Assembly (NCBI GenBank): GCA_947628315.1
Contig: CANQZJ010000012.1
Location: forward strand, 1 to 50,088
Origin: an uncultured Oscillospiraceae bacterium
GTDB taxonomy: Bacteria; Bacillota; Clostridia; Oscillospirales; Oscillospiraceae
DNA: 50,088 nucleotides
Direction of reading: 5' to 3'
Below the pieces are notes generated by a model. The model saw nothing but the letters and a program-made list of their open reading frames with translations. It searched no databases and had not been told where the DNA came from. Numbering within the stretch: position 1 is the stretch's first letter; every line of letters starts with the position of its first letter. The position numbers and the translations under genes are program-made. Shown here in pieces: positions 2,560-49,892 of this stretch.

Positions 2560-3348
2560 ATGGACTGGGATGCCATTGAAGCGAAAATCGAACAGGCCGC
2601 ACAGGAACAGGCCGAAGCGAAGCGCCAGCAGATCTCCGAAAGGAGAGCGGCGCACCGCGCCAGGAAACGTCGGAGGAAGATCGCACAGATCGTCGGAGCC
2701 GCCGCCGCCCTGGCCCTCGGAGCTTCCATCGTCGCAGCTGCGGCCACAGCCGGGAGCCGGGAGCCTACGCCTTCGGCTCCCTCTGATTTACAGGGGCCGG
2801 AACCGACGGCCACAGCATACATACCGCCGACAGAATCCATCGTGCTGCAGGCCGCCCCATCACCGGCCCCGGCCCCGCCGCCGGAGCCGGAGCAACCGGC
2901 GAAGCTCCTGGAGAGCGTCCCCCTCGACGCGGAGACGCAAGCCGCAATCTTCGACCTTTGCGGACAAGACCCGGAGTTGTTCTGCGCTGTCATGGCCATC
3001 GCCTGGAGAGAGAGCCGCTTCCGCTCGGACGTGGTCGGGGACAGTGGGGTGAGCAAGGGAATGTACCAGATCAACACCCGCTGGCACACCGAACGCATGA
3101 AGAAGCTGGGGGTGACCGACCTCACCGACCCGGTACAATGCACCGCCGTGGCCCTGGACTACCTCCGGGAGCTTTCAACACGGTACGGCTTCGGGTGGGT
3201 GCATGACAACACCCTCTTCATGGGGTACAACGCTGGCCCCAGTAGGGCCCAGAGGATGCTCCGCAACGGAGTGACCTCCACAGCCTACAGCCGGGAGACC
3301 ATCGCCCTCATGGAGACCTACCTGGCGGAGATGGGGGCGGCGAAATGA
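2560..3348 (+). CDS. Membrane-anchored lytic transglycosylase (SLT/goose-lysozyme-like fold)
   Basis: This 262-residue protein has a charged cytoplasmic N-terminus, one membrane segment (about residues 46-68, IVGAAAALALGASIVAAAA), a Pro-rich linker to about 110, and a C-terminal lysozyme-like domain. The domain shows AWRESRF with the likely catalytic Glu, GVSKGMYQIN, and MGYNAGPSRA, the signature order of SLT transglycosylases. It should cut peptidoglycan from the outer face of the membrane. The early operon is an unusual place for a wall hydrolase, since the lysis and tail genes lie 40 kb away. Roles in superinfection or lysogenic conversion are possible. Confidence 0.8.
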   Translation: MDWDAIEAKIEQAAQEQAEAKRQQISERRAAHRARKRRRKIAQIVGAAAALALGASIVAAAATAGSREPTPSAPSDLQGPEPTATAYIPPTESIVLQAAPSPAPAPPPEPEQPAKLLESVPLDAETQAAIFDLCGQDPELFCAVMAIAWRESRFRSDVVGDSGVSKGMYQINTRWHTERMKKLGVTDLTDPVQCTAVALDYLRELSTRYGFGWVHDNTLFMGYNAGPSRAQRMLRNGVTSTAYSRETIALMETYLAEMGAAK

Positions 3349-4069: not shown

Positions 4070-4754
4070 GGATCCTGGTGGCCTGCGAGGAAAGTCAAGC
4101 CGTCTGCATCGCCCTCCGGGAGCTGGGCCACGAAGCCTACAGCTGCGATATAGAGCCCTGCTCTGGCGGGCACCCGGAGTGGCACATCCAAGCGGACGCG
4201 ATCCCCCTCATCAACGGACGATGCACCTTCACCGACTGCGGGGGGGGCACCACCATATCGGAACCCAATGGGATATGCTCTTTGCTTTCCCTCCCTGCAC
4301 CTACATGACCAACGCCGGAGCGGTGCGGATGAGGGTACGCGGGGAGATCCAGCCGGAGCGGTACGCCAAAGCCATGGAGGCAAAGGCATTCTTCCTGAAG
4401 TTTTACAACGCGGACTGCCCCCGGATTTGCATCGAGAACCCCACCCCCATGAAGCTCATCGGACTGCCGCCCTACACCCAAGCCATCCAGCCATGGGAAC
4501 ACGGAGAACCCTACACAAAACGAACGTGCCTCTGGCTGAAGAACCTTCCCCTCCTGCGCCCCTCCAACATCATCACCGAAGGAGTGACCCCATACGTCAA
4601 CGGCGGGTGCAAAGATGCCAACGGCAACTACCGCCGGTTCCAGGGCCGCAAGGAACGGGATCCTAAAACCCGGAGCAAGACCTTCCCCGGAATCGCAAAG
4701 GCGATGGCGGAACAGTTCGCAGGCAAAGCAGACCTTCACAGCCAACCCGGCTGA
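4066..4754 (+). pseudogene. C5-cytosine methyltransferase-like gene broken in a G8 tract
   Basis: Read from GTG 4066, the first frame gives RILVACEESQAVCIALRELG and CDIEPCSGGHPEWH, a SAM-binding start typical of phage cytosine methyltransferase-like proteins. It goes out of frame at eight G (4240-4247) and ends near 4308. The family continues in another frame: WDMLFAFPPCTYMTNAG (PPC, motif IV-like), ICIENPTPMKL (ENP, motif VI-like) and RSKTFPGIAKAMAEQFAG near the end. Nine G would restore one frame of about 229 residues. The break may be a true mutation, a slippery or phase-variable tract, or a sequencing error. Confidence 0.75.
4240..4247 (+). repeat. Poly-G tract (8 G) at a frame break
   Basis: Eight consecutive G lie exactly where the methyltransferase-like reading frame shifts. 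One added G, or a -1 ribosomal slip, joins the two halves. Confidence 0.85.
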
Positions 4755-4781
4755 GAGGAATAAACGAAAGGAATGAACAGC

Positions 4782-5768
4782 ATGAACAAGCCCCAAAAAA
4801 TCTTCCTGTCCGGCCCGATCTCCACGCGGCTGGACACCTACAAGGCGGAGTTCGACAAGGCTGCGGAGATCGTGGCCGATGCCGGACACATCCCCCTGAA
4901 CCCGGCCTGGATGCCCCTCGGCCTCCAGCAGAAAGACTACATGAGGATCTCCATGGCCATGCTCGAAAGCGCAGACCTGCTGGTCGCCCACCCGGACTGG
5001 GCAGAGAGCAAAGGAGCGACCATCGAGCGAACCTACGCGGAGAAGGTCGGGATCCCGGTCATGAGCTGGGGAGACTTCCTCGCGGCGGTCACCCCGCAGG
5101 CCCCTGCGGTGCCCAGCTGCGAAGTCGTAGCCACCACCCGCCGGTTGGAGACCGTCGACCTGGCAAAGTTCCGGGATGCCCTCGGAACCGGGCGGGCCTC
5201 CGACATCCTCCGGCCCTTCGACATGATCAGCGTCCATTTAACCAACGGAGACACGGTAGCCATCCAGTGCGCCTTCGTGGGGACAGACTACGCCCGGTTC
5301 ATTTTCCTGGACTGCGTCGGGGACTTCATGATGAACGATGAGCCCACGAACGAGGGCGGCTATTACAAGAGCCAGGGCCGCAAGGCCGTCCTGGAGGAAA
5401 TCTACCCGCTCCTGCCCGCAGAGCTGAGAGCCATGATCCGCCCCCGGACGATCAGAGAGACCATCAACGGGGAGACGGTCGAGTACGCGGATCCGCTCTG
5501 GCTCCCCTCCGCCACCGACGTGTTCGGCAGCCCGAAGGACAAGTGGTGGCCGGATGAGAATGACAGCTTCCACCTCCCGATCTTCACGCGGGAGAGGAAC
5601 CGGGTGAAGGAATGCGGAGACCACGGGTCATACCCGTGGTGGCTGCGTTCGGTCTTTGCGACCTACACGACGAACTTCTGCATTGTGTACTCTGACGGGG
5701 GCGCGAGCTACCGCAACGCCTACAGTTCGTATGGCTTTGCGCCGGGCTTTGACATTGCCAAATCCTGA
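4782..5768 (+). CDS. Second DGR target: DUF4406 domain fused to a DUF6273-like variable domain
   Basis: The start is taken as ATG 4782, nine bases after AAAGGA; ATG 4773 abuts the ribosome site. The protein has 328 residues. Residues about 1-90 match DUF4406 (nucleoside 2-deoxyribosyltransferase-like): KIFLSGPIS, then HPDWAESKGATIERTYAE. A middle region follows. The C-terminus is a DUF6273-like, C-type-lectin/FGE-type fold ending in WWLRSV...GFAPGF. The last about 38 residues are encoded by variable repeat VR2. There is no signal peptide or membrane segment, so it should be cytoplasmic. Genes around it belong to DNA metabolism, not to the virion. The substrate of the DUF4406 part is unknown. 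Confidence 0.8.
   Translation: MNKPQKIFLSGPISTRLDTYKAEFDKAAEIVADAGHIPLNPAWMPLGLQQKDYMRISMAMLESADLLVAHPDWAESKGATIERTYAEKVGIPVMSWGDFLAAVTPQAPAVPSCEVVATTRRLETVDLAKFRDALGTGRASDILRPFDMISVHLTNGDTVAIQCAFVGTDYARFIFLDCVGDFMMNDEPTNEGGYYKSQGRKAVLEEIYPLLPAELRAMIRPRTIRETINGETVEYADPLWLPSATDVFGSPKDKWWPDENDSFHLPIFTRERNRVKECGDHGSYPWWLRSVFATYTTNFCIVYSDGGASYRNAYSSYGFAPGFDIAKS
5637..5750 (+). repeat. DGR variable repeat VR2
   Basis: These 114 bp align without gaps to template positions 42396-42509. I count 13 differences, all at template adenines and mostly in AAC/AAT codons (for example AAT to TTT, AAC to TAC, AAC to CGC, AAT to AGT). All non-A template positions are unchanged. This is the signature of adenine-specific mutagenic retrohoming. 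Confidence 0.92.
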
Positions 5769-5780
5769 AATCCAGCAAAT

Positions 5781-5802
5781 CCCCGGAGCGAAAGCTCCGG
5801 GG
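5781..5802 (+). promoter_or_regulatory. GAAA-loop hairpin downstream of VR2
   Basis: A perfect 9-bp stem (CCCCGGAGC with GCTCCGGGG) closes a GAAA tetraloop 30 bp past the end of VR2. Bordetella phage DGR targets need a similar hairpin or cruciform just downstream of the VR for efficient homing. An equivalent hairpin follows VR1, and I find none after the TR. Confidence 0.8.
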
Positions 5803-5831
5803 AGAAGCCCCAAAGAAAGGAGGCGAGAACG

Positions 5832-39869: not shown

Positions 39870-41696
39870 ATGGGATTCGGCCCCGTAAACACCCCCAGCT
39901 CCGGCGGAAGCGGAGAGGAACTGGAGGCCGTCCGCAAGCTCGCACAAGGGGCAGCGGACACAGCAGGCTCCGCTAAGAACGATGCAGAGAGGGCACAGCA
40001 GACCGCCGATGCCGCCCTGCAGGCCGCAAATGCGGCGGGAACCGCCGCCGCCGGAGCGCAAAAGACAGCCGACCAGGCGCTGGAGGCGGCGAACGCCGCC
40101 GGAAGTCTGGCCCAGACCGCAAAGGACACCGCCGACAAGGCCCTGGAGACCGCCAACGGCGCAAAGAGCACAGCGGACTCCGCCCTGCAGGCGGCACAGA
40201 CCGCCCAGCAGACCGCAGATGCCGCCGCCGCGTCCATCAAGAAGCTGACGAACACGATCAGCACCACCCCCAGCCAGAACGGCACCCTCACCTACAACGG
40301 CGATACCCAGTCCCCCAGCTGGAACAGCTACGACCCGGAGCAGCTGACGCTGGGCGGCGTCACAGAGGGCACCAACGCCGGGGAGTACCAGGCCACCTTC
40401 ACCCCGAAAGAGGAATACACCTGGGCGGACGGCACCCAGGATGAGAGGCAGGTCACCTGGGTGATCAAGCGCAAGACCGTCCCCCTGCCCACGCAGAAGG
40501 ACAGCCTGACCTACTCCGGGGAGGCCCAGTCGCCCACCTGGAACGACTACAGCGCCGGGGAGCTTGACCTGGACGGGAACACCTCGGAGACCAACGCAGG
40601 CACCTACCAGGCCACCTTCACCCCGAAGTCGAACTACCAGTGGAGTGACGGCACCTTCGCCGCCCGGAACGCCTCCTGGAGCATCGCAAAGGCCCAGGGC
40701 ACCCTGAGCCTGACCCCGTCCCAGCTGACGCTGGACATTTCCGCCCTGAGTAAGGACTTCACCGTCAACCGGGCCGGAGACGGAAAGATCACCATCCAGG
40801 TGGACAACGGAGCCGTGGCCGATGCGACCCTGGCCGGGACGAAGGTCACCGTCAAAGGCAAGACGAAGGGCAGCGCAAAGGTGACCGTCTCGGTCGCCGC
40901 CGGGACGAACCACACCGCTCCCCCGAACGCCATCTGCACCGTCAACGTCACCCTGCCCAGCAAGACCCTGGCGGACAATGACCCGGCCACCATCCAGGCC
41001 GCAGGAAAGGCCGGAACCGGGGCCACATATTGGGCGGTGGGCGATAAAATCCCCATCAAGGTCAACGGTACCTTCGGAGGGCTGACCTACAACGATACCG
41101 TCTACGCCTTCATCCTTGGCTTCAACCACAACCAGAGCGTGGAGGGCAACGGGATAGACTTCCAATTCGGAAAAACGGCGGACGGGAAAGACATCGCCTT
41201 CGTCCAGCAGTACGGCAGCACCGGCGTCGGCTTCTGCATGAACACCACCAACACCAACAGCGGCGGGTGGGCGACCAGCCACATGAACACGGTGATCTGC
41301 CCCGCCTTCCTCAAGGCCCTGCCGTCCAACTGGCAGAGCGCCATCAAGGAATGCACCAAGTACAGCGACAACACCGGGAACAACGGCGACACCGCCAGCA
41401 AGGTCACCGCCAGCACACAGAAGATCTTCCTCCTGGCGGAGTTTGAGGTGCAGGGCCAAAAGACCTACGCCAACAGCGCCGAACAGACCTATCAGAAGCA
41501 GTACGCCTACTACGCGAACGGCAACAGCAAGGTGAAGAACCAGCACACCAATACAGGCTCCGCCTGCGCTTGGTGGCTGCGTTCGGTCTCTGCGACCAAC
41601 ACGGCGAACTTCTGCATTGTGGGCACTGGCGGGAGCGCGAACGCCAACAGCGCCTACGCTTCGGGTGGCTTTGCGCCGGGCTTTAAGTGTGCCTAA
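39870..41696 (+). CDS. DGR target 1: variable tail fiber / receptor-binding protein
   Basis: This 608-residue protein starts at ATG 39870. Residues about 10-130 form an Ala-rich coiled-coil shaft (QKTADQALEAANAAGSLAQT). Two related beta repeats follow (LTYNGDTQSPSWNSY...NAGEYQATFTPK; LTYSGEAQSPTWNDY...NAGTYQATFTPK), then a third Ig-like unit. The C-terminal about 240 residues are a DUF6273-like domain ending WWLRSVSATNTANFCIV...GFAPGF. VR1 encodes residues about 563-605. It is the last tail gene, next to the DGR machinery, and is the expected host-binding protein. Confidence 0.92.
   Translation: MGFGPVNTPSSGGSGEELEAVRKLAQGAADTAGSAKNDAERAQQTADAALQAANAAGTAAAGAQKTADQALEAANAAGSLAQTAKDTADKALETANGAKSTADSALQAAQTAQQTADAAAASIKKLTNTISTTPSQNGTLTYNGDTQSPSWNSYDPEQLTLGGVTEGTNAGEYQATFTPKEEYTWADGTQDERQVTWVIKRKTVPLPTQKDSLTYSGEAQSPTWNDYSAGELDLDGNTSETNAGTYQATFTPKSNYQWSDGTFAARNASWSIAKAQGTLSLTPSQLTLDISALSKDFTVNRAGDGKITIQVDNGAVADATLAGTKVTVKGKTKGSAKVTVSVAAGTNHTAPPNAICTVNVTLPSKTLADNDPATIQAAGKAGTGATYWAVGDKIPIKVNGTFGGLTYNDTVYAFILGFNHNQSVEGNGIDFQFGKTADGKDIAFVQQYGSTGVGFCMNTTNTNSGGWATSHMNTVICPAFLKALPSNWQSAIKECTKYSDNTGNNGDTASKVTASTQKIFLLAEFEVQGQKTYANSAEQTYQKQYAYYANGNSKVKNQHTNTGSACAWWLRSVSATNTANFCIVGTGGSANANSAYASGGFAPGFKCA
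41556..41685 (+). repeat. DGR variable repeat VR1
   Basis: These 130 bp align without gaps to the template at 42381-42510. I count 16 differences, all at template adenines, most in AAT/AAC codons (AAT to GCT, AAT to TCT, AAC to GGC, AAC to GCC, AAT to GGT). The flanking sequence diverges sharply on both sides. Confidence 0.93.
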
Positions 41697-41785: not shown

Positions 41786-42355
41786 ATGTCCGTTTACAAA
41801 TCCCGAAGGAAAGACGCATCCGCCCAGTTTATCGCTGACGCGAGGGAGCTGCGGCGGCTGGTCGCCAGGGCGGTGAGACGGTTCCCCAACAGCTACCGCT
41901 ACATCGTCACCAACGGCCTGCTGGAGATGGCCAGAGAGATCGTGGTCAATTCCATCAAGGGGAACGGCGTTTATTTGCACAAAGACCTCTCGCAAGAGGA
42001 CTTCAAGCTGCGCCACCGCTACCTGAAGATGGCGGAGGTCACCGCAGATGCGCTCCTGGAGGAAATCACCTTTGCATACGAGCTGGTGGCAGAGGGCAAT
42101 AACTTCTTCAAGAGCAAAGAGGAATACGAAAAGGTGTTCAGCGGCCTGACGGCCCAGGGAAACACCGTCCTCAAGCGCCTGCGGAATTTGATCTCCAACG
42201 ATCAGGACAGGTGGCGGCGGTACCAGAAAGAAAAGGCGGAGGCGGAAGCGGCAGCAAAGGCCGCCGCCGAAGCGGCTACAAAGGCCGCCGAAGCCAAAGC
42301 AAATGCCGAGGGCACCGGGGCCGGGGAACCGGCCCCCGCCCAGGCCGAAGAATAA
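41786..42355 (+). CDS. avd: DGR accessory variability determinant (Avd-like)
   Basis: This 189-residue protein lies between VR1 and TR, the usual place of Avd. The helical core (about 1-150) has DARELRRLVARAVRRFPNSY, EMAREIVVNSIKGNG, and LRNLISNDQDRWRRYQKEKA. This fits the basic four-helix bundle that forms a pentamer and binds both RT and template RNA. An Ala/Glu-rich tail of about 40 residues is extra compared with the usual about 130-residue Avd. It is required for mutagenic homing in the Bordetella system. Confidence 0.82.
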   Translation: MSVYKSRRKDASAQFIADARELRRLVARAVRRFPNSYRYIVTNGLLEMAREIVVNSIKGNGVYLHKDLSQEDFKLRHRYLKMAEVTADALLEEITFAYELVAEGNNFFKSKEEYEKVFSGLTAQGNTVLKRLRNLISNDQDRWRRYQKEKAEAEAAAKAAAEAATKAAEAKANAEGTGAGEPAPAQAEE

Positions 42356-42380: not shown

Positions 42381-42510
42381 GGCTCCGCCTGCAATTGGTG
42401 GCTGCGTTCGGTCAATGCGACCAACACGACGAACTTCTGCATTGTGAACACTGACGGGAGCGCGAACAACAACAACGCCTACAATTCGAATGGCTTTGCG
42501 CCGGGATTTA
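42381..42510 (+). repeat. DGR template repeat (TR)
   Basis: This 130-bp region is nearly identical to VR1 (41556-41685), and positions 42396-42509 match VR2 (5637-5750). It is rich in AAT and AAC codons at the variable positions, including four AAC in a row (42465-42476), the design that lets A-mutagenesis reach many amino acids without stops. It is not inside a conserved gene. It should be transcribed and reverse-transcribed with errors at A. Confidence 0.93.
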
Positions 42511-42868
42511 GGAAACCACACAGGGGCCAGAAACAGTAGCCGGACGGCGAACCCGTGCCCCTCCCCTAAAGGAGAGTTTGCACCTTGGAGCCTGCCTCGG
42601 AATCGAGGTTCAATCCTAAAATCGCCCCACGACACGATCCGCCCGGACGCTGCTTGCATGGCCGGGGAGTTTGGTGGGCACCGACCCGGAGCCTCAGAGA
42701 GACCGGGAAGGGCCTCCCCGGTTTCATTGGCGGACGTTATGCAGCTGAGACAGAAAAACCACCCCCGGCGGCGGGACAGGTGCAGGCACCGACGCACCCT
42801 GCAAACCACCCGCAAGAGGGGCCGTCTGTGCGTGGGGGCCGCGTCATTCCCAGAAAAGAGGTACCCGC
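42511..42868 (+). ncRNA. Probable TR RNA 3' region / spacer before the RT
   Basis: This interval of about 360 bp lacks a convincing gene. It contains small hairpins, for example CTCC...GGAG (42561-42574) and CCTCG-GAAT-CGAGG (42595-42608). In studied DGRs the sequence just after TR forms the structured RNA that primes cDNA synthesis and binds RT-Avd. That role is inferred from position. Confidence 0.5.
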
Positions 42869-44119
42869 GTGACAAGTGAGGAACGCCGCGAGGGCAGGTA
42901 CCAGCGCCGCAAGGCAAAGCGGGAGGCAAAGGCCAGAGAGGTGACCGGGAAGTCCTTCGGAGAAGTGGTCAACTTCGGAAACCTGATCCGGGCCGGGAAA
43001 GGGGCCTGCGACGGATCCCGATGGAAAACCTCGACGATCCTGTTTGAAGCCAACCTCCTGTCGGAGTGCAAGGATATCGATGACACGCTGACAGCGGAGC
43101 GGCGGAGGTTCAAGGGCTTCCACAGTTTCACCACCGTGGAGCACGGAAAGGCCAGAGCCATCGACGCACTGCCCATCAAAGAGCGGACAGGCCAAAAGTG
43201 CCTGTGCCAGAATTACCTGACCAAAGCGTATTCCCGCAGCTTCATCAACACGAATTCCGCAAGCCTGGAGGGCCGGGGCATGGACTACGCCCTGGAGACC
43301 CTGTGCGGACAGCTCAGAGCGCACTACCGAAAGCACGGCCTGCAGGGCGGGATTTATCAATTCGATTTCAAGGGCTACTTCGGGAGCCTGCCACACGATC
43401 GCATCAAGGCCAGGGCCAGGAAGATCATCCAGGACGATAAGCTGTTCCGGCTTTACTGCAGCTACATCGACGATTTCCTGAAGATGCGAACCGCAGACAG
43501 GAACGCGGAGCGTCCCCGTGGCGTGGGCCTGGGGAGCGAAGTGTCGCAGATCACCGCCCTGGATGCCGCCAGCCCGATAGACCACTACTTCAAAGACCGG
43601 CGGCGGGTGGAAGCCTATGGCCGGTACATGGATGACGGGTACGCGATCAGCCCCTCCTTGGAGGAACTGCGAGACCTGGACAGATGCAACCACCTGATGG
43701 CCGCCGATCTCGGCCTGACCCTGAACGACAAGAAATGCACCATCACCCCATTCAGACACCACAGCTTCACGTTCCTGAAGGTGCGCTTCACCCTGCAGGA
43801 AAGCGGCAAGGTCACCATGAAGCTGGGCCGCCGGAGCATCAAGGCCATCCGCCGAAAGATGGACATCTTCAGGCGCTGGGTGACCGAAGGGAAGATGGAC
43901 GCGGAGGATGCCATTCAGAGCTACCAGAGCTGGAGGGCCCACGCGAAGCGGTGCGACAGTTACCGCACACTGGAGGCCATGGATGCCCGGTTCGTCTCTA
44001 TGTTCGCCCCGGAGCTGCGCCGCCGGAAAAACAAATTTCCCTGCACCCTCCGAGCCAAAAAGACACGGGCCGGATGGGAGTACACCCGCAACATACCGCC
44101 CGCCCAAAAGGCGGCATGA
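42869..44119 (+). CDS. DGR reverse transcriptase
   Basis: This 416-residue protein starts at GTG 42869, with GAGGT six bases upstream. The RT core shows QFDFKGYFGSLPHDRIKAR (first catalytic Asp, about residue 165). The DGR-type motif GLGSEVSQ is at about 220-227, where retroviral and group II enzymes have QG...SP; it is linked to low fidelity at A. YMDD is at 253-256, and SFTFLKVRF follows. It copies the TR RNA into A-mutated cDNA that replaces VR sequence. No maturase or endonuclease domain is present. Confidence 0.95.
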   Translation: MTSEERREGRYQRRKAKREAKAREVTGKSFGEVVNFGNLIRAGKGACDGSRWKTSTILFEANLLSECKDIDDTLTAERRRFKGFHSFTTVEHGKARAIDALPIKERTGQKCLCQNYLTKAYSRSFINTNSASLEGRGMDYALETLCGQLRAHYRKHGLQGGIYQFDFKGYFGSLPHDRIKARARKIIQDDKLFRLYCSYIDDFLKMRTADRNAERPRGVGLGSEVSQITALDAASPIDHYFKDRRRVEAYGRYMDDGYAISPSLEELRDLDRCNHLMAADLGLTLNDKKCTITPFRHHSFTFLKVRFTLQESGKVTMKLGRRSIKAIRRKMDIFRRWVTEGKMDAEDAIQSYQSWRAHAKRCDSYRTLEAMDARFVSMFAPELRRRKNKFPCTLRAKKTRAGWEYTRNIPPAQKAA

Positions 44120-47813: not shown

Positions 47814-48113
47814 TCAATGGAGAGCGGCGGAGATTTTATCGCACAGGATGTCGAAGCACTGCTCCAGGTAATCGGTTACAACGTCCCAGACCCGGTAATT
47901 GGTGGTCATCTTTTTGACCTGGTCGTAGAGGCCGAAGTCCTCGTTGGTGAGAGCTACGAGCCGCTTCATCATGCCCTCAGTGATCACCACATAAGGGACG
48001 AACTCGTTTCCCCGCAGATCCTGGAGAAAATCCTTTTTGCTGAGCTGCTGCTCGGCTACCGAGGTAACATTCTCGCTGTCCTTCCAGTGACCAATCGCCG
48101 CGTAAACCTTCAT
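47814..48113 (-). CDS. Small protein under the shared operator, unknown
   Basis: This 99-residue protein is read from ATG 48113, with AAAGGAACGGGGG upstream. MKVYAAIGHWKDSENVTSVA opens it; DYLEQCFDILCDKISAALH ends it. It is the first gene of a leftward transcript whose promoter carries the 14-bp operator. A lysogen-expressed or conversion role is likely from context. No family recognised. Confidence 0.7.
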   Translation of the reverse strand: MKVYAAIGHWKDSENVTSVAEQQLSKKDFLQDLRGNEFVPYVVITEGMMKRLVALTNEDFGLYDQVKKMTTNYRVWDVVTDYLEQCFDILCDKISAALH

Positions 48114-48145
48114 TTTTTTGTCCCCCGTTCCTTTAGGTTGATTAA

Positions 48146-48174
48146 ATAATACCATACACACGCATGGAATACAA
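48146..48174 (-). promoter_or_regulatory. Leftward promoter with operator in its spacer
   Basis: On the minus strand the -35 is TTGTAT (48174-48169) and the -10 is TATTAT (48151-48146), with a 17-bp spacer. The spacer holds the 14-mer CCATACACACGCAT (plus-strand reading, 48152-48165). It drives 47814-48113. Confidence 0.75.
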
Positions 48175-48207
48175 GTCTTTTTCGAGAAATAAATTGCACA
48201 AAAAACA

Positions 48208-49555: not shown

Positions 49556-49765
49556 TCAAGACCTCTTTTCCTTGGCGTTCAGCAGATTGCTGGAGTGGTA
49601 GCGGACGGAGTGCCGGACACCCCAGATATGATTCAGGATCAGGTAGTTGCTGGCATCCAGCGGGTTCTTGGCGTACACATAGAGGGTTTGACGATTGCGG
49701 GTGCCCTTCGGGGTGAAGTCGATCTCAAAGAGGAAGGAGCCCTCGAACTTAGAATTTAGCGTCAT
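49556..49765 (-). CDS. Small protein, unknown
   Basis: This 69-residue protein is read from ATG 49765, with AAAGGAACGGAGGGC upstream. The pattern FEGSFLFEIDFTPKGT, QTLYVYAKNPLDASNYL is beta-rich. First gene after the leftward promoter at 49798-49826. No family recognised. Confidence 0.65.
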   Translation of the reverse strand: MTLNSKFEGSFLFEIDFTPKGTRNRQTLYVYAKNPLDASNYLILNHIWGVRHSVRYHSSNLLNAKEKRS

Positions 49766-49797
49766 TTTTTTGCCCTCCGTTCCTTTAGGTTGTCTGT

Positions 49798-49826
49798 ATA
49801 TTACCATACACACGCATGGAATACAA
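49798..49826 (-). promoter_or_regulatory. Second leftward promoter with operator in its spacer
   Basis: The -35 is TTGTAT (49826-49821) and the -10 is TAATAT (49803-49798), with a 17-bp spacer holding CCATACACACGCAT (49804-49817). The flanking DNA is a near copy of the region around 48140-48225, so the whole promoter module was duplicated. Confidence 0.75.
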
Positions 49827-49892
49827 GTCTTTTTTGAGGCATAATTTGCACAAAAAAAACAAGACGTGCGTATGGTAGTAATGACAACAAAA

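Follow-up and report, generated by a model that had tools for sequence, protein, structure and literature searches.

An early gene of a contractile-tailed phage of a gut bacterium is almost certainly a real target of the phage's diversity-generating retroelement (DGR), with its variable repeat (VR2) lying ~36.8 kb from the template repeat (TR). Its product, for which T2 (the early DUF6273 protein) serves as a working name, joins a diversified DUF6273 domain to a DUF4406 domain that is probably, as judged by profile comparison, a nucleotide N-glycosidase-like enzyme domain. Among everything compared, this fusion appears only here. The explanation that best accounts for the observations overall, and that we favour with modest confidence, is that T2 works in the cytoplasm as a DGR-diversified binder to which a nucleotide enzyme is joined, perhaps in counter-defence. 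An earlier note on this DNA had described a second, remote, non-tail DGR target combining a nucleotide-enzyme-type domain with DUF6273, and the VR2/TR match and Pfam bear that description out.

Results

One template repeat serves a tail-fibre-like gene and a remote early gene

The window is the whole 50,088-nt stretch of contig CANQZJ010000012.1 that was analysed, and the assembly that contains it is fragmentary (2.69 Mb in 198 contigs, 76.8% complete). The phage is marked by a terminase at 21 kb, a head protein at 25 kb, a tail sheath at 29 kb and an endolysin-like gene at 46 kb. Two AT-rich 96-nt direct repeats (48110-48205 and 49762-49857), 89% alike, lie close to the window's right end. 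The DGR cassette runs from the TR through an RT-2 RNA to the reverse transcriptase (RT), and its single TR (42381-42510) serves two variable repeats, VR1 in the tail-fibre-like first target T1 and VR2 in T2 (Table 1). Motifs picked out by eye in the RT at 42869-44119 are LGSEVSQ (SQ-type) and YMDD, which we take to be DGR-type RT motifs. The RT-2 RNA may form the 3' portion of the template RNA that the DGR uses in such phages. The candidate Avd reading frame at 41786-42355 matched the Avd of phage Shimadzu weakly (23% identity, E 0.002), showed no similarity to the Avd of phage Toutatis and gave no Avd family match in family-profile scans.

Table 1. Coordinates of the features of the window that bear on the DGR and on T2
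Feature	Coordinates	Strand	Basis or remark
SLT transglycosylase, upstream of T2	2560..3348	+	Pfam SLT E 1.7e-13; hydrophobic segment at 44
DNA methyltransferase-like gene	4179..4754	+	directly upstream of T2; phrog_757 E 1.6e-36
T2, second DGR target gene: DUF4406 + flexible linker + DUF6273	4782..5768	+	
DUF4406 domain of T2	4797..5063	+	residues 9-97 of 331-aa reading; Pfam E 8.6e-23
DUF6273 domain of T2	5334..5756	+	residues 188-328; Pfam E 2.3e-12
VR2, variable repeat	5637..5750	+	13/13 mismatches vs TR at TR A
DNA hairpin	5780..5803	+	10-bp GC-rich stem, GAAA loop, 29 nt past VR2
First DGR target T1, tail-fibre-like, alanine zipper + DUF6273	39870..41696	+	family profiles
VR1	41556..41685	+	within T1; 16/16 mismatches at TR A
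Possible Avd accessory ORF	41786..42355	+	position and weak similarity only
TR, template repeat	42381..42510	+	repeat and TR/VR comparison
RT-2 RNA (Rfam RF03077)	42522..42797	+	69.7 bits, E 6.1e-14; between TR and RT
DGR reverse transcriptase	42869..44119	+	Pfam RVT_1; phrog_1423 E 2.4e-73

The 114-nt alignment of VR2 (5637-5750) with TR 42396-42509 is gap-free, and all 13 mismatches fall at TR adenines, exactly as had been claimed. With 29 adenines in 114 positions the probability of this outcome is ~1.6e-9, and a chance repeat was rejected on that value. Compared with the TR reading, ten residues of T2 are altered (N295F, N298Y, N306Y, T307S, S310G, N312S, N313Y, N314R, N318S and N320Y, in 331-aa numbering). 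One change, A to C at TR 42506, is common to VR1 and VR2 and may be a fixed difference of the initiation of mutagenic homing (IMH) site. The two repeats otherwise look to have changed independently, a check that the earlier note had proposed: seven mutated adenine sites are held in common against 6.3 expected, and the base is identical at two of the seven.

A hairpin follows VR2 that, folded as single-strand DNA, has a predicted energy of -17.3 kcal/mol (z -5.16, 0/200 shuffles). The hairpin past VR1 scores less strongly (z -2.70, 2/200 shuffles), and none was found past the TR of the window (flank z 0.14). Phage BPP-1 is described as needing such a hairpin, and the hairpins of phage DGRs as having a GRNA loop and a spacing of 4-34 bp (PMC3240598). 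A terminator was rejected as an explanation of the hairpin downstream of VR2, since no terminator-like site was found.

T2 is an intact protein with two predicted domains

The T2 reading frame is open over 4773-5768 (331 aa) with no stop in frame, and the start Met at 4782 (328 aa) is better spaced after a GAAAGGA stretch than the alternative Met at 4773. The prospect of a gene killed by a frameshift, which would have undone the original proposal, was rejected on the open frame and on purifying selection in two pairs of relatives. The DUF4406 domain scores 81 bits against a Pfam cut-off of 22. In the AlphaFold model of T2, block means are 89-98 at residues 11-100 and fall below 50 at residues 110-121, the linker, which is rich in proline and alanine; the part at 5133-5765, modelled as the DUF6273 domain alone, reaches a pLDDT of 91.8 and a pTM of 0.89. 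DUF6273 is described as a C-type lectin fold (PMC10743442). A T2 sequence profile searched against the PDB returned chance matches only and, up to E 1, no lectin chain, and phmmer of T2 against the PDB gave no match.

The full-length T2 proteins read numbered 34. No hydrophobic segment (19 residues averaging at least 1.4) was found in any of the 23 tested, and it is this hydropathy scan that supports the earlier statement that the protein has no signal peptide. PADLOC, whose library holds defence rather than counter-defence families, gave no match for T2. T2 is probably a cytoplasmic, non-virion protein.

Gene neighbourhood and an envelope role

The T2 gene of the window lies 15 kb ahead of the terminase gene and distal from the tail genes, preceded by the methyltransferase-like gene (no Pfam match for 4179-4754) and followed by an SNF2-type helicase. 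In Shimadzu T2 lies between a methyltransferase and Erf, and in phage Fontainebleau it adjoins DNA polymerase I. A scan of the gene directly upstream at 17 other loci gave one methyltransferase (L130) and six cell-wall hydrolases or endolysin-like genes; beyond L130, an upstream methyltransferase was seen in the window, Dulem virus 34 and Shimadzu. The commonest neighbour was a peptidoglycan hydrolase (SLT, Hydrolase_2 or 3D), which at 19 of 32 T2 loci lies on the same strand no more than 3.5 kb upstream. In nine phages (L044, L057, L058, L126, L128, L134, L137, L138 and L139) it directly neighbours T2, with its end close to the T2 start or overlapping it, and the early hydrolases inspected have an N-terminal hydrophobic segment. 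PADLOC recognized a generic helicase and a weak zinc-ribbon match among the T2 neighbours.

This association is the main support for an envelope or virion role, in which T2 and the membrane-anchored hydrolase of the same early run would act together and the lectin face of T2 would recognise a ligand in the cell wall or on the surface; entry, superinfection exclusion and release are examples of where this could happen. The ligands of other DUF6273/C-lectin targets are likewise taken to be surface ligands (PMC10743442). We regard this role as rather unlikely: the T2 proteins tested lack a hydrophobic segment, the N-terminal additions found (the DUF4406 enzyme and a CPxC stretch) fit the cytoplasm, and the gene stands well before the terminase gene. 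A hydrolase was found near 6 of 80 DUF4406 loci, a comparison figure that is biased because the hydrolase queries were taken from T2 loci.

Second targets in related phages

Across 15 VR2/TR pairs from the window and 13 other phages or genomes, 233 of 242 mismatches fell at A, a figure to be read with the selection in mind, as the scripts kept repeats with at least 60-70% (in one run 50%) of their mismatches at A and so are biased towards pairs of this kind. The counts were 13/13 for the window, 22/22 for G207, 11/12 for G232, 13/15 for G247, 18/18 for G031, 15/16 for Dulem virus 34 (a circular record), 18/18 for G651, 18/19 for G652, 15/16 for G656, 11/11 and 21/21 for G613, 15/15 each for Shimadzu and Fontainebleau, 15/17 for Lelie and 13/14 for Toutatis. 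For G031, G247 and one of the G613 pairs, TR and VR2 are on separate contigs, and their origin from the same phage is putative. When only non-A sites were considered, VR2 matched the TR of its own phage best in all 11 pairs tested of the 15 (G613, Lelie and Toutatis not being among them), as repeated homing would predict. In the sequence stretches examined, no VR2/TR pair was listed for G653, G627, G654, G655, G026, G030 or the second T2-like gene of G232. An RT was found in three of six IMG/VR records and in seven of eight genomes searched for one. Whole-protein searches of IMG/VR and GTDB, together with a TR-derived pattern run in IMG/VR, returned no close relative or strain of the window phage.

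The proposal that diversifying an early non-structural protein would be unusual holds for the DUF4406 fusion, seen only here, and is overstated for the arrangement itself, which has A-specific pairs in 13 other phages or genomes. Comparable cases have also been published, in Quimbyvirus (PMC8008677), four prophage species (PMC12629997) and Lelie, CP11 and Shimadzu (PMC11792537), as these sources describe them.

A hairpin follows VR2 in nine of nine core T2 phages, with stems of 5-11 bp and loops that are GNAA in eight (five strictly GRNA, three GCAA) and of five bases in G031. Both VR2s of G613 are followed by a 7-bp stem whose loop, also of five bases, is of a different kind. The best stems after the TRs of T2 phages are 4-8 bp, those of Dulem virus 34 and G656 being a 4-bp stem with a GNAA loop.

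Several further arrangements were observed. In G613 (L114, L115 and L116) a single TR accompanies three VRs: one is close to it, and the other two lie in small DUF6273 proteins far off, one of them on another contig. The same genome region of G232 has a second T2-like gene (L040 9082-9762) that shows no A-specific match with the TR and is perhaps an escaped or decayed target. The window's own genome holds a further DUF6273-like gene with a 241-codon open frame (L048, G000:C7:16547-17041), for which no A-specific pair was listed within 19 kb around the gene or with the window. Very similar tail-fibre genes with differing VR1 occur in prophages of different genera (L043 10437-10562 in G247 and L049 8354-8479 in G237).

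An earlier tree that included VR columns (30 T2 and 12 T1 rows) joined the T1 and T2 of Shimadzu and placed the T2 of G030 among the T1s. Because of this mixing the tree was rebuilt without VR columns, G030, Fontainebleau and some near copies, and with L153 added (23 T2 and 10 T1 rows). Outside the VR the T1 and T2 domains then formed separate groups, save for weakly placed Shimadzu rows, and T2 as a recent copy of T1 was rejected. The same separation tells against superinfection exclusion, in which early T2 would bind the host receptor or the tail tips of related phages as they arrive, as does the independent variation of VR1 and VR2 in the window. While the DUF6273 domain and single TR common to T1 and T2, and the position of T2 away from the tail genes, speak for such a role, we consider it improbable.

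Change is concentrated in VR2 in four close pairs of relatives

Sequence comparison of close pairs of relatives showed change concentrated in VR2. Between G653 and L123, mismatches numbered 27/485 upstream, 26/123 in the VR and 1/60 downstream, and between L138 and L139 they numbered 40/485, 23/123 and 2/60. The respective dN/dS values were 0.02/0.269 outside and 0.271/0.19 inside the VR for the first pair, and 0.067/0.279 and 0.301/0.036 for the second. Two tandem T2-like copies in G026 (L046 13565-14188 and 16008-16637) are identical over ~430 nt and then diverge in the VR, and no A-specific pair was listed for this contig. Lelie and Toutatis differ at 29 positions in 648 nt, 17 of them inside a 67-nt part of VR2.

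No VR excess was present in four diverged pairs (upstream divergence 22-31%), in which VR mismatches (of 123) against upstream mismatches (of 485) were 22 against 109, 31 against 125, 35 against 149 and 27 against 128. An excess in these pairs may be hidden by synonymous change and by VR positions fixed by the TR, and they are not counted as support. An invariant VR2 among relatives, named beforehand as the outcome that would speak against the idea, was thus not what the four close pairs showed; the four diverged pairs gave no excess, and all the pairs come from phages other than strains of the window phage. In print, both VRs of CP11 (Faecalibacterium) are described as varying across cognate genomes, and read variation is described as not seen in the Lelie VRs (PMC11792537).

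These data bear on by-catch, the idea that VR2 is a stray homing site that shares the IMH and hairpin and accumulates diversity without a selected role. A transplanted IMH and hairpin are reported to be enough for BPP-1 homing (PMC3240598), and the missing excess in the diverged pairs is in keeping with this idea. VR2 is nevertheless kept across diverged phages along with its own hairpin, and in the two pairs tested dN exceeds dS in the VR and lies below dS elsewhere. A to T changes are also commoner in VR2 than in VR1 (41/125 against 22/129 over eight phages with both, Fisher p 0.0055; clearly higher in four phages, about level in three and lower in one). We consider by-catch very improbable.

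The DUF4406 fusion and its enzyme domain

Among the 34 full-length T2 proteins read, DUF4406 was present in that of the window only. By eye, the others either stand alone at 189-227 aa or carry either of two unnamed N-terminal extensions of ~70-90 aa; two T2 proteins of G613 have an N-terminal CPxC stretch that is weakly zinc-ribbon-like. In 13 other T2 proteins submitted to Pfam, DUF6273 was the one family above the cut-off, with Lelie and Fontainebleau just below it. The search for DUF4406-DUF6273 fusions that had been suggested found none elsewhere: DUF4406 ran on into T2 at none of 80 IMG/VR DUF4406 loci (the best 80 of 301 relatives), and among 300 genomes of the family and 391 of the class the window's own was the sole match spanning DUF4406 and T2. 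In 394 order genomes the search was for T2 only, and fusions were judged just from the T2 proteins read.

As separate genes the two do occur together. At 7 of 31 other T2 loci a DUF4406 gene on the same strand starts 0.9-2.4 kb after the T2 start. Since the separate gene lies downstream in these relatives, the fusion seems to join near neighbours with their order changed, and as the two are separate genes of one run in some relatives, the fusion suggests that T2 and DUF4406 work together. A tight link is weakened by the loci taken from the DUF4406 side, where T2 lay within 3 kb at 2 of 80 (again the best 80 of 301 relatives in IMG/VR) and not at the other 78, and by a prophage of G237 in which SLT and DUF4406 are present and T2 was not found. 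A chimera, with two neighbouring genes falsely fused in a fragmentary assembly, would account for a fusion seen in this genome only and for the downstream DUF4406 of relatives that have both, yet it can be given almost no weight beside the single clean open frame, the proline/alanine-rich linker and the lack of any second DUF4406 in the 50-kb window.

A DUF4406 profile built from 16 chosen sequences matched the N-glycosidase MilB (4jel) weakly, at E 0.0022. BlsM against the same profile gave E 0.17, among chance ribosomal-protein matches (E 0.11). Residue E85 of the T2 DUF4406 domain aligns with a glutamate of MilB that is presumably the catalytic residue, and it is kept in 16 of the 16 chosen rows.

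Discussion

The preferred reading, a cytoplasmic diversified binder with an attached nucleotide enzyme, leads to a counter-defence role for T2 that we put forward tentatively and somewhat short of even confidence. It is the best guess because the virion genes are at a distance from T2, because the diversified face is lectin-like with many aromatics, in line with the A to T excess over VR1, and because T2 is linked with a nucleotide enzyme and, in a subset of phages, with methyltransferases. Against it count the blank PADLOC result for T2, the hydrolase as the commonest neighbour, the single methyltransferase among the 17 upstream genes scanned, and the occurrence of DUF4406 mostly without T2. 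The weak MilB match, the diverged pairs without a VR excess and the unvarying Lelie reads (PMC11792537) also weigh against the preferred reading.

By analogy with BPP-1, the RT at 42869-44119 would introduce mutations at adenines as it copies the TR RNA, and the resulting cDNA would be directed to VR2 by the 3' IMH and the GAAA-loop hairpin and take its place. The gene would then encode an early protein without a signal sequence, whose C-terminal lectin-like domain bears about ten DGR-changed residues and is tied by a flexible linker to a DUF4406 domain weakly resembling CMP-type N-glycosidases, with the aligned glutamate kept. The diversified face might then capture a fast-changing host partner in the cytoplasm, probably a defence protein, and DUF4406 might act on a nucleotide at the captured partner as counter-defence. 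In its fullest form, which we consider unlikely, this would be an enzyme-armed, fast-evolving intracellular binder: the DGR would reshape the lectin face to track changing host immune proteins, the fused DUF4406 N-glycosidase would destroy or edit a nucleotide or signal at the captured complex, and the separate T2 and DUF4406 proteins of other clostridial gut phages would do the same as a pair.

A diversified domain fused to a probable nucleotide enzyme offers a biochemical handle on the ligand of a second target, and the existence of named phages with a second-target arrangement (Lelie, Fontainebleau and Shimadzu) makes the question directly testable; Lelie is reported to have been induced in culture (PMC11792537). 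If the ligand is a defence protein, the directed evolution carried out by the phage would be aimed at intracellular immunity, beyond adsorption. A search of open-licence PMC papers found none pairing a diversity-generating retroelement with DUF4406 and two pairing one with DUF6273, and one survey states that its own approach would miss remote targets (PMC8144416).

Comparison with known systems

The enzyme half of T2 resembles MilB, a CMP/hydroxymethyl-CMP N-glycosidase (4jel) that aligns with DUF4406 including the glutamate, though the match is weak and MilB is without a lectin domain. The DGR resembles that of Bordetella phage BPP-1 in its A-specific TR/VR differences, its IMH and the GC-rich GAAA-loop hairpin after the VR, whereas the BPP-1 target is the tail-tip protein Mtd (PMC3240598). 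Phages nd4 and nd12 share with the window one TR and two DUF6273/C-lectin targets with differing VRs (tentaclin and tgt2), but both targets are described as lying in the DGR cassette, and tentaclin as having N-terminal lectin and Ig domains (PMC10743442). The DUF6273 domain of the window T2 is C-terminal, and the Pfam scan gave no match to an Ig family.

Further counterparts are found among clostridial phages. Lelie and CP11 are described as having large and small DUF6273 targets (PMC11792537). The Faecalibacterium phages Lelie and Toutatis encode a small DUF6273 protein in the early region with VR2 mismatches mostly at A; they differ in that only the VR part is similar to T2, in having ~37 residues beyond the VR and in giving no DUF4406 match. 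In Roseburia phage Shimadzu (LR596903), orf43, cited in PMC11792537 as a protein of unknown function, is a T2 homologue (28% identity over 85% of the domain) with VR2 mismatches at A in 15 of 15 cases. It is a stand-alone protein of 209 aa, however, and a deoxyribosyltransferase is annotated separately as orf49.

Non-tail second DGR targets have been reported in phages since at least 2021. In four gut prophage species a distal second VR is described near counter-defence genes (Nature 2025, PMC12629997); we liken them to T2 by description, in which DUF6273 and DUF4406 are not named. Quimbyvirus, from a Bacteroidetes host, is described as diversifying a target in the tail region and also a distal, non-structural C-lectin protein that neighbours a nuclease and methyltransferases in a defence-related island, with earlier phage targets called structural (PMC8008677, Benler et al. 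2021). That description, on which our comparison is based, does not mention an enzyme domain. The window T2 has the same kind of setting, distal from the tail genes with a methyltransferase-like gene alongside. As remote second targets are already known in print, what is new here is the enzyme fusion and the breadth of the early DUF6273 family across clostridial phages.
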